From Halorubrum saccharovorum DSM 1137 (lineage in GTDB: Archaea; Halobacteriota; Halobacteria; Halobacteriales; Haloferacaceae), in NCBI RefSeq assembly GCF_000337915.1, contig NZ_AOJE01000060.1, forward strand, positions 124,251 to 162,147: DNA of 37,897 nt. The letters are read 5' to 3'. The notes under the pieces were generated by a model. The model did not search any database and had not been told where the DNA came from. It worked only from the letters and a program-made list of their open reading frames with translations. Every line of letters begins with the position of its first letter. Position 1 is the stretch's first letter. This document shows, piece after piece, positions 12,708-15,026 of this stretch. The translations under genes and the position numbers were made by a program.

Positions 12708-12733
12708 ACACGTTTCAGTGGGGTGAAACGTGT
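12708..12733. promoter_or_regulatory. Perfect inverted repeat between the smc operon and cdrL
   Basis: ACACGTTTCA (12708-12717) and TGAAACGTGT (12724-12733) are exact reverse complements separated by six bases. The repeat lies about 60 nt upstream of cdrL and about 50 nt upstream of the smc operon TATA box. A weaker pair, TGTGTG and CACACA, is centred near 12677. The position suits a regulator acting on both divergent promoters. Confidence 0.55.
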
Positions 12734-12792: not shown

Positions 12793-13404
12793 ATGAGCAA
12801 GATCACCTTCCGGGCCGACGACGACCTCGTCGAGCGGCTGGAAGCGTGTGACGCCTCCAAGAGCGAGGTGATGCGGGAGGCCCTCCGGACCCACCTCGAC
12901 GGCGCGGTCGGCGGCGGCACGGACGGCGACGGGTCGAGCGCGTCGGACGCGACCGTCGACGCCGCGCTGGCCGATCGGATCGACGACCTCATCGCCGATC
13001 GGCTCGATGCCGCGTTGGACGAGCGGCTCGGCGAGCGACCGGCGCCTTCGCCGTCCCCCCACGCGGCGTATACGCCCGGAAACGCCGGCGATATCAACGT
13101 AAACGTCACTCTCGACGCCCCCGGTGCCGACGAGGAGGACGCGAGTGTAACGCGTGAGACGACGGCGGACGACGATTCGCAGACGCGTAAGACGCCCGCG
13201 GATCCGGACGTGCAAACGCGGGAAAACGTCTGCGGCGGATGTGGTGAAAACGTCCCGTCTGATCACGTATACTGCCCGAATTGTGGCGAGAAGCAGTCCC
13301 ACCGTGCGTTCTGTGAGTGCGGCGACGAGCTCCGGACTGACTGGGCGTTCTGTCCCGGTTGCGGTCGTCGAACCCCCGCTGCCGACGTATTGAAAGACCG
13401 CTAA
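12793..13404 (+). CDS. cdrL: CdrL, long ribbon-helix-helix cell-division regulator with zinc ribbons
   Basis: This 203-residue protein begins with a ribbon-helix-helix DNA-binding domain (residues 2-37; KITFRADDDLVERLEA then KSEVMREALRTHLD). A low-complexity linker follows, then two zinc ribbons at the C-terminus: CGGC...CPNC and CEC...CPGC (about 150-195). In haloarchaea a gene of this type (CdrL) lies upstream of cdrS-ftsZ2 and its product has been reported to bind that promoter. The order here, 218 nt before cdrS, matches. A TATA-like ATACTTG (about 12761) is 27 nt before the ATG. The GTAAGAC motif also occurs inside this gene at 13187-13193. Confidence 0.82.
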   Translation: MSKITFRADDDLVERLEACDASKSEVMREALRTHLDGAVGGGTDGDGSSASDATVDAALADRIDDLIADRLDAALDERLGERPAPSPSPHAAYTPGNAGDINVNVTLDAPGADEEDASVTRETTADDDSQTRKTPADPDVQTRENVCGGCGENVPSDHVYCPNCGEKQSHRAFCECGDELRTDWAFCPGCGRRTPAADVLKDR

Positions 13405-13454: not shown

Positions 13455-13608
13455 GTCTTACACCCTCCGGTAGTTTTATATTGGTAGCCTCGGTGACTTC
13501 AACTGCGTAAGACGGTCGTCTTACAGTGGCCGTCCGAGCCGGGGTGACCCTCCGTCGTCGGGCGATTCGTCGTTGTAAGACGCGCGCGTTGCGTGTTCGC
13601 CGTCTTAC
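13455..13608. promoter_or_regulatory. Cluster of GTAAGAC/GTCTTAC sites before cdrS-ftsZ2
   Basis: The heptamer GTAAGAC or its complement GTCTTAC occurs at 13455-13461, 13507-13513, 13518-13524, 13575-13581 and 13602-13608. The pair at 13507-13524 is a tight inverted repeat with a 4-bp spacer. The first and third pairs flank and follow a TATA box at 13474-13482. These are strong operator candidates for a ribbon-helix-helix regulator (CdrL or CdrS). Confidence 0.7.
13474..13482 (+). promoter_or_regulatory. TATA box of the cdrS-ftsZ2 operon
   Basis: TTTTATATT is the best TATA match in this gap but lies about 145 nt before the cdrS start. If it is used, the message has a leader of about 120 nt carrying the three later GTAAGAC/GTCTTAC sites. 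Confidence 0.6.
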
Positions 13609-13621
13609 CGGGGGAATACCA

Positions 13622-13801
13622 ATGGAGCGTGTGACACTACGAATCCCGAAACAGCAGATCGACGAGGTCGAACAGATGGTCGAGACGGGCGAGTTCCCGA
13701 ACCGGAGCGAGGCGATCCGGTCGGCCGTCCGCGACATGTTGAACGAACAGGACGGCGAGCGCGACGAGCGCGGCCGCAGCCGCAACTGGGCGAAGGTGTA
13801 A
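13622..13801 (+). CDS. cdrS: CdrS, short ribbon-helix-helix cell-division regulator
   Basis: This 59-residue protein is a single ribbon-helix-helix domain: strand MERVTLRIP, helix [13 protein letters not shown], then [16 protein letters not shown], with a short charged tail. CdrS is known in Halobacterium and Haloferax as a transcription regulator of cell division encoded directly before ftsZ2. Here ftsZ2 begins 4 nt after its stop, so they are one operon. The start at 13622 is chosen because the family begins at MERVTLRIP; the in-frame sequence upstream is arginine-rich and covers the operator sites. Confidence 0.9.
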
Positions 13802-13805
13802 ACTG

Positions 13806-15026
13806 ATGCAGGATCTCGTTCAGGACGCCCTCGACAACGCGGAAGCGGAGAAGCGCGACATGGACTCCGTCGACATGGACGACGACGAGTTCGGGGACCC
13901 CCGAATCGTCATTGTCGGTGCCGGCGGCGCCGGCAACAACACGGTCAACCGGCTGTACAACATCGGCGTCGACGGCGCCGACACCGTCGCGATCAACACG
14001 GACAAACAGCACCTCAAGATGGTCGAGGCCGACACCAAGATCCTCGTGGGCAAGTCGCTCACGCAGGGGCTCGGCGCCGGCGGCGACCCCAAGATGGGCG
14101 AGCGCGCCACGGAGATGGCCCAGGGGACGATCAAAGAGGTGCTCGGCGACGCCGACCTCGTCTTCGTCACCGCCGGGATGGGCGGCGGCACCGGCACCGG
14201 TGCAGCGCCGGTCGTCTCGAAGATCGCGAAAGAGCAGGGCGCCATCGTGGTCGGGATGGTCTCGACTCCGTTCAACGTCGAGCGCGCCCGTACGGTGAAA
14301 GCCGAGGAAGGGTTAGAGAGCCTCCGTAACGAGGCCGACTCGATCATCGTCCTCGACAATAACCGACTGCTCGACTACGTCCCGAACCTGCCGATCGGGA
14401 AGGCGTTCTCCGTGATGGACCAGATCATCGCGGAGACGGTGAAGGGGATCTCCGAGACGATCACCCAGCCGAGCCTCATCAACCTGGACTACGCCGACAT
14501 GTCCACCATCATGAACCAGGGCGGCGTCGCGGTGATGCTCGTCGGCGAGACCCAGGACAAGAACAAGACCCAGGAAGTGGTCAACGACGCGATGAACCAC
14601 CCGCTCTTGGACGTCGACTACCGCGGTGCCTCCGGGGGGCTCGTCCACATCACGGGCGGTCCGGACCTCACGCTCAAAGAGGCCGAGGGCATCGCGAACA
14701 ACATCACCGAGCGGCTGGAGGCGAGCGCCAACGTGATCTGGGGCGCCCGCATCCAGGACGAGTACAAGGGGAAGGTCCGCGTCATGGCGATCATGACGGG
14801 CGTCCAGAGCGCGCAGGTGCTCGGCCCCTCCACCCAGAAGCAGGCCGATAAGTCCCGCGCCGCGGTAGACGCCGATGACCTCGGCGACTCGCGCTCGCGG
14901 GCGGCCGAGACGAACGGCACCGCCGGCAACGCGGCGGTCTCGGGCGGCACCGACCAGGACGCGTGGGAGTCCGACGGCGGCAGCGAGCCGACCGAAAAGA
15001 ACAACGGGCTCGACGTCATCCGCTAA
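13806..15026 (+). CDS. ftsZ2: Cell division protein FtsZ2
   Basis: This 406-residue tubulin homologue has an acidic N-terminal extension (1-30), the nucleotide-binding segment [17 protein letters not shown] (34-50), and the GTP-binding signature GGGTGTG at 126-132. [17 protein letters not shown] is the T7 synergy-loop region, where the catalytic Asp residues lie. A disordered tail of about 50 residues ends in a conserved-looking GLDVIR. FtsZ2 assembles at mid-cell and is needed for constriction in haloarchaea. Linkage to cdrS upstream and ncsA downstream identifies it as FtsZ2 rather than FtsZ1. Confidence 0.95.

Follow-up and report, generated by a model that had tools for sequence, protein, structure and literature searches.

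The heptamer GTAAGAC that recurs in front of the cell-division operon cdrS-ftsZ2 of Halorubrum saccharovorum DSM 1137 probably acts in two layers, with the same copies serving on the DNA, where the regulator CdrL is their predicted binder, and again in the leader RNA of the operon. The window analysed is a stretch of 37,897 nt (contig NZ_AOJE01000060.1 of assembly GCF_000337915.1, positions 124,251-162,147, forward strand), for which the original prediction had proposed five heptamers between positions 13455 and 13608. All five were found at these places, as was the tight inverted pair at 13507-13524, which reads GTAAGAC-GGTC-GTCTTAC. The list of five omitted a conserved sixth copy, located at 13187-13193 within cdrL. 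The genes and sites are as follows.

12793-13404, plus strand: cdrL, encoding a probable ribbon-helix-helix (RHH) N-terminus, a linker and a double zinc ribbon.
13187-13193, plus strand: site 0, GTAAGAC in the cdrL linker, within codons CGT AAG ACG (Arg-Lys-Thr).
13455-13461, minus strand: site 1, preceding the TATA box, at a distance of 52 bp from site 2; exact in 123 and with one mismatch in 47 of 174 distinct upstream stretches.
13475-13482, plus strand: TATA-like box TTTATATT, starting 32 bp before site 2.
13507-13513, plus strand, and 13518-13524, minus strand: sites 2 and 3, the pair GTAAGAC-N4-GTCTTAC, located where transcription presumably starts; they also form the 5' arms of the predicted RNA helices P1 and P2.
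13575-13581, plus strand: site 4, a leader heptamer that pairs with site 3 as the 3' arm of P2; 113 of 174 stretches have it exact.
13602-13608, minus strand: site 5, which pairs with site 2 as the 3' arm of P1 and lies 14 nt ahead of the cdrS start codon; 171 of 174 stretches have it exact.
13610-13617, plus strand: GGGGGAAT, conserved between P1 and the cdrS start codon in alignments of relatives.
13622-13801, plus strand: cdrS, RHH_1 at 36.6 bits (Pfam).
13806-15026, plus strand: ftsZ2, Tubulin at 152.3 bits and FtsZ_C at 122.5 bits.

The gene names given earlier were borne out, as Pfam domains match all three. CdrL scored 38 bits for CdrL_M (cut-off 27) and 30.8 bits for DZR (cut-off 27.3), and its nearest named relatives belong to Halorubrum (92% identity). 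The evidence for an RHH fold in CdrL is fair, not full: Pfam RHH_1 reached 20.4 bits, just below its cut-off of 20.5, an N-terminal profile matched the CopG-family chain 6xrw with an E value of 0.0019, and the structure model, weak overall (mean pLDDT 65.7), has the two helices in place. The N-terminus MSKITFRA is identical in 36 of 36 relatives. Also without variation in all 36 relatives are the eight cysteines of the double zinc ribbon (window 13231-13404, the end of cdrL), a hint that CdrL may respond to a metal, to redox state or to a partner. Approximately 60 bp upstream of cdrL, at 12708-12733, lies an inverted repeat ACACGTTTCA-N6-TGAAACGTGT that is not of the GTAAGAC type and is a possible operator of cdrL itself. 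Regarding cdrS, the gene is present in 52 of 52 genomes of the genus sample, and an in-frame N-terminal extension from a GTG at 13526 was rejected, from reading only, because the leader lengths of relatives differ by non-multiples of three.

Within the window GTAAGAC occurs six times against 1.76 expected (sd 1.22), a count reached in none of 100 dinucleotide shuffles. The whole genome (3.42 Mb) contains 55 copies, 19 forward and 36 reverse, compared with 43 and 44 for the reversed-word control; the word is thus, if anything, scarce genome-wide, yet five of its 55 copies fall within 154 bp. Shuffles and genome count together rule out a chance cluster. Elsewhere in the genome, exact heptamers form a close pair only once, as GTCTTAC-TCAG-GTAAGAC (L250:1041-1058, contig C51); this pair has the opposite orientation order and sits near an HNH-like open frame; it may be due to chance or be a site on a mobile element.

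Conservation in relatives, the check proposed with the original prediction, was looked for in 174 upstream stretches and in 292 Halobacteria genomes, and it proved strong. GTAAGAC-N4-GTCTTAC was found in 233 of the 292 genomes, once in 232 of them and twice in one (G261), and the reversed control of this 4-bp-spacer pair gave no match in the same 292. In 53 of the other 59 genomes the pair is present with another spacer (2-12 bp allowed) and adjoins cdrS matches, so that 286 of 292 carry it with some spacer. Among the last six, G251 has neither a CdrS nor a CdrL match, and in G060, G161, G206, G063 and G303 CdrL is present and the letters of the pair are changed. In a phylum sample the pair (2-6 bp spacer) was detected in 41 of 43 Halobacteria versus 3 of 203 other genomes, 15 of which match the reversed control (counted from the table). 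The phylogenetic range of the pair is that of CdrL, which has been described as absent outside Halobacteria (PMC7439475, available text).

The cdrS-upstream stretches came from 30 genus loci, 80 named haloarchaeal contigs and further class members; 216 of these 220 loci had a cdrS match, and they yielded 174 distinct 160-nt stretches. Many of the 220 were gathered by similarity or by the pattern itself (in one set 80 of 223 were kept), and for this reason counts over the 174 lean toward presence of the pair, the whole-genome counts (292 Halobacteria and the phylum sample) being the unbiased figures. Of the 174 stretches, 168 carry the tight pair without a mismatch, 4 with a single mismatch and 2 with two. 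Spacers of 4 bp (117 stretches) and 5 bp (45) prevail, the remaining 12 stretches having 2, 3 or 6 bp; the half-sites thus start 11 bp, 12 bp, or 9, 10 or 13 bp apart, respectively, which is about one helical turn.

The TATA box begins 32 bp before site 2, the commonest distance, seen in 113 of 159 stretches with a good box, and the usual archaeal TATA-to-start spacing would put the transcription start at about site 2. Sites 2 and 3 would then occupy roughly +1 to +20, where a bound protein suggests repression or gating, and the leader would contain sites 4 and 5. Of the five array heptamers, site 1 alone precedes the core promoter, its distance to site 2 being mostly 52 bp, or about five helical turns. 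Sites 1-4 share their flanks, with a pyrimidine before and a purine after GTAAGAC; site 5 lacks the pyrimidine flank, a G preceding the heptamer in 158 of 171 cases. We also considered site 1 as half of a second full palindrome; a partner half (two mismatches at most, 9-13 bp away) was detected in 25 of 174 stretches, versus 18 of 174 at a control position 20-24 bp from site 1, these coming in part from genomes with a plus site there. In most stretches without such a partner half, site 0 is present. Most haloarchaeal transcripts are leaderless, and the conserved GGGGGAAT just before the cdrS start is unusual for the group. Published figure legends (PMC8406309) mention a strong promoter ahead of cdrS as well as a 5' UTR, and the cdrS mRNA of Haloferax volcanii is reported to be approximately 250 nt long (PMC8406309, available text). 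Leader and cdrS together would here give about 305 nt, longer than that mRNA, which counts against the model.

The sixth copy, site 0, is held by codon-level constraint. The cdrL gene was found by its first residues in 79 of 80 named loci, and the tripeptide RKT is encoded in 67 of the 79. The exact word GTAAGAC is used in 62 of these 67 genes, whereas the frequencies with which the genes choose their Arg and Lys codons predict approximately 15%, and the Thr codon is ACG or ACA in all 67. Where the peptide is changed (SKT, GKT, RMT), GTAAGAC or the variant GTATGAC, also seen at site 1, is still kept. In total, in-frame GTAWGAC occurs in 70 of 79 cdrL genes, and neither the other frames nor the other strand of the 79 contain it. 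Moreover, a plus-oriented half-site beside site 1 was present in 8 of 9 cdrL genes without the word and in 1 of 69 with it (78 of the 80 loci), although the p-value of this trade-off overstates the case, as few independent lineages are involved (Haladaptatus, Halorussus, Natrialba and Natronococcus). Such a swap between site 0 and the half-site beside site 1 fits a need for one plus-oriented upstream site.

The original prediction had ascribed this promoter to CdrL and CdrS jointly. In Halobacterium salinarum, CdrL-FLAG ChIP-seq showed binding only upstream of cdrS-ftsZ2, at the level of a region and not resolved to sequence (PMC7439475, available text), and the array lies upstream of the same genes, in what corresponds to the sole CdrL region reported there. 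For CdrS, 18 ChIP sites are listed in Hfx. volcanii, none of them at cdrS (PMC8406309, Table 1), and one lies 50 nt upstream of the ftsZ1 start (PMC8406309, available text). We compared 30 ftsZ1 upstream regions, from 59 ftsZ1 matches (two of the 30 having a deduced start codon other than ATG), and found GTCNGAC-N4-GTCNGAC within one mismatch in 28, and GTAAGAC in none. This footprint, derived here from the ftsZ1 comparison and not the published CdrS logo, is likely the CdrS site. It lies about 65 bp upstream of ftsZ1 (L220-L249), and its half-sites have the 11-bp pitch of the CdrL-type pair. The heptamers upstream of cdrS do not match it, as they read GTAAGAC and not GTCNGAC. From the letters, then, two RHH proteins seem to share one geometry with different half-sites, and the binder of GTAAGAC is likely CdrL, not CdrS. 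The likely CdrS motif being a different word, the joint ascription should probably be narrowed to CdrL alone: the CdrL part agrees with the ChIP-seq region (PMC7439475, available text), and the CdrS part is at odds with the ftsZ1 motif.

That the heptamers are autoregulatory sites of CdrS, and not CdrL sites, we hold to be quite improbable. CdrS is an RHH protein encoded by the operon itself, and its likely motif at ftsZ1 shares the 11-bp pitch and has similar half-sites; against this stand the absence of cdrS from the 18 CdrS ChIP sites of Hfx. volcanii (PMC8406309, Table 1), the lack of GTAAGAC in all 30 ftsZ1 upstream regions, and a range confined to Halobacteria for the pair, when cdrS-ftsZ2 is described as wider (PMC7439475, available text). 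As main reader of GTAAGAC, CdrS was rejected on the ftsZ1 comparison.

Between sites 2 and 5 the transcript would fold into a three-way junction, the parts of which are listed here.

13507-13608, plus strand: leader three-way junction, indicated by covariation, sense-strand bias and free fold.
13507-13516 with 13599-13608, plus strand: helix P1.
13518-13530 with 13569-13581, plus strand: helix P2, continued by 13531-13537 with 13558-13564 and 13539-13544 with 13550-13555.
13582-13587 with 13591-13596, plus strand: helix P3.

This structure was written by hand after RNAalifold (49 leaders) and free folds, and is partly derived from the data on which it is tested. The leader sets of 112, 166 and 111 are stretches chosen for exact heptamers from the 174, and a covariance model aligned distant leaders badly (alignment A4). 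The window leader, folded freely, brings sites 2 and 5 together as well as sites 3 and 4, with a hairpin between sites 4 and 5 (z -2.61). Among 166 leaders folded in this way, 162 have the 2:5 pairing and 108 have both heptamer pairings; most of the others have a changed site 4.

As the heptamers are complementary anyway, letters outside them were tested for pairing in 111 leaders. The six nucleotides that follow site 3, matched with the six that precede site 4, were paired at 3.96 of 6 positions versus 3.02 after permutation of the partners across genomes (maximum of 500, 3.39); the three that follow site 2, matched with the three that precede site 5, were paired at 2.68 of 3 versus 2.39 (maximum 2.47). 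No signal was detected for the 2:5 flanks at six letters (3.62 versus 3.55 permuted) or for the rival 4:5 flank pairing (0.65 versus 0.66), and two of three control combinations came out slightly above the permutation range at one setting. When one leader per cluster was used (23 clusters), the values were 4.20 versus 3.39 for the 3:4 flanks and 2.45 versus 2.10 for the 2:5 flanks. Local hairpins 2:3 and 4:5 as the main fold were rejected, because flanks do not covary in that way and the free fold prefers 2:5 (162 of 166).

Within 46 Halorubrum-type leaders, 91.0% of the structure cells are paired, compared with 33.7-46.8% for slid versions, and 32 cells are changed on both sides versus 17.7, a number reached by none of 500 shuffles. 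Two of the five covariation measures were unremarkable in these 46 leaders (pairs with both-side changes, 64 of 500 shuffles; pair types, 245 of 500), and outer P2 pairs are often broken, with A3 columns 24-27 unpaired in 11, 16, 24 and 14 leaders. The rival structure of local hairpins showed no covariation. In 65 disjoint sister pairs drawn from 171 leaders, pair-keeping changes on both sides were found in 28 of 2795 structure pairs versus 28 of 13975 control pairs, and changes on one side kept the pair in 52% of cases in sense-strand folds versus 26% in antisense folds. Base-pair covariation is therefore present in the leader, on the sense strand. In a set of 112 leaders, the stretch between sites 3 and 4 has a mean z of -2.1 against shuffles and folds better in the sense than in the antisense direction in 91; that of the window itself folds no better than shuffles (z 0.05). 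In Halonotius (L111), where site 4 reads GTGGGGC, G-U pairs keep the pairing with GUCUUAC complete, within a stem of 15 bp. An Rfam search of the leader returned two matches, both far below the gathering score, which rules out a known Rfam element. A re-analysis of ribosome profiling data from Hbt. salinarum has described the cdrS-ftsZ2 operon as probably under post-transcriptional regulation (PMC8303175, available text).

These results bear on a plain operator array, in which all heptamers would be CdrL sites only and folding of the leader a by-product of inverted sites. Such an array would account for the location of sites 0 and 1 outside the leader, for the same word in both orientations and for a pair found once per genome. 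Nevertheless, we regard it as unlikely, given that letters outside the heptamers covary as RNA pairs (2:5 and 3:4), that G-U pairs are tolerated on the sense strand, that site 5 breaks the flank rule, and that the GTGGGGC replacement of site 4 is explained only by RNA pairing. Far less credible still is a pure RNA element, with the heptamers as mere helix arms of the leader and no protein reading the DNA; flank covariation and the pairing of sites 2 and 5 in nearly all free folds speak for it, but it leaves aside the conserved site 1 upstream of the TATA box and the conserved site 0 in cdrL. In G066, G303, G166 and G241, moreover, sites 4 and 5 are missing by eye reading and the tight pair is kept (with one changed letter in G303); that sites 2 and 3 remain where 4 and 5 are lost argues against pure RNA, as does the published CdrL ChIP peak on the region (PMC7439475, available text).

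The two-layer model is preferred since leader RNA does not explain sites 0 and 1, and DNA binding explains neither flank covariation nor the wobble-pairing site 4. What stands of the operator array proposed originally is its conservation, together with site 1 upstream of the TATA box and site 0; the reading falls short in that a covarying leader RNA uses sites 2-5 as helix arms as well. A plain array of five operators is too simple, because site 5 breaks the DNA consensus and site 4 can be replaced by wobble-pairing letters. On the simplest account, sites 0-3 would be DNA sites, with CdrL as their most likely reader; sites 4 and 5 would chiefly be the RNA partners of sites 3 and 2, and this role would be why site 5 is frozen despite its misfit DNA flank.

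In the DNA layer, CdrL, a probable RHH protein, would read the half-site Y-GTAAGAC-R, with sites 2 and 3, one helical turn apart, covering the transcription start, site 1 just upstream of the TATA box and site 0 approximately 320 bp upstream, within cdrL. CdrL placed on the start site and flanking the core promoter would most simply repress or gate cdrS-ftsZ2, and a DNA loop might let site 0 act as the plus-oriented partner that is absent at site 1. In the RNA layer, a transcript starting at about site 2 would fold into the three-way junction (2:5, 3:4), ending just before the conserved GGGGGAAU and the start codon, and would protect the 5' end or tune translation initiation. The data themselves show conservation, spacing, the constraint on site 0 at codon level and base-pair covariation in the leader; CdrL as the binder, the start site, repression, looping and the role of the RNA fold we infer. 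Whether a single set of heptamers has been selected twice, as CdrL half-sites in DNA, including a copy forced into cdrL, and as arms of a three-way-junction leader from about the first transcribed nucleotide, seems to us evenly balanced.

Operators of RHH repressors such as MetJ, NikR and CopG consist of short half-sites, often in pairs or arrays, read by a two-stranded ribbon. Unlike these, a half-site here lies within the coding sequence of the regulator, and the same letters serve again in RNA helices. Other mRNA leaders regulate in cis through their structure, being riboswitch-like or protein-binding, and the cdrS leader resembles them in its conserved, covarying fold between promoter and start codon of the regulated operon; it differs in matching no Rfam family, and in its host group, in which such leaders have been called untypical, a start-site study of Hfx. 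volcanii having found long leaders scarce and structured-leader control not typical (PMC4983044, available text). CdrL control of cdrS-ftsZ2 in Hbt. salinarum (Darnell et al. 2020, PMC7439475, available text) concerns the same genes in the same order. That article, in whose main text the words "motif" and "leader" do not occur, describes in its available text no binding word, cdrL site or leader structure; it reports that a cdrL deletion strain gathered second-site mutations. The CdrS regulon of Hfx. volcanii (Liao et al. 2021, PMC8406309, available text) likewise involves a symmetric site of an RHH protein of the same operon. Compared with the heptamers upstream of cdrS, the CdrS-type half-site at ftsZ1 is GTCNGAC instead of GTAAGAC, and lies upstream of the TATA box only. 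No CdrL operator sequence or structured cdrS leader was found in the open-access papers searched. CdrL as a regulator and cdrS-ftsZ2 as its target are already known; as far as we have seen, neither the operator word nor the copy within cdrL nor the second use of operator letters in RNA helices has been described before.

Until now CdrL has had one ChIP region and no operator word (PMC7439475, available text). A class-wide putative operator, an intragenic site and a probable leader RNA would turn its control of division into a problem of mutating and measuring in Haloferax and Halobacterium. The leader RNA is of note in a group said to lack structured-leader control (PMC4983044, available text), and would be a clear case of letters of a DNA site reused as RNA structure. 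If the two-layer model is true, initiation and post-transcriptional control of an archaeal division operon would be written in the same letters.
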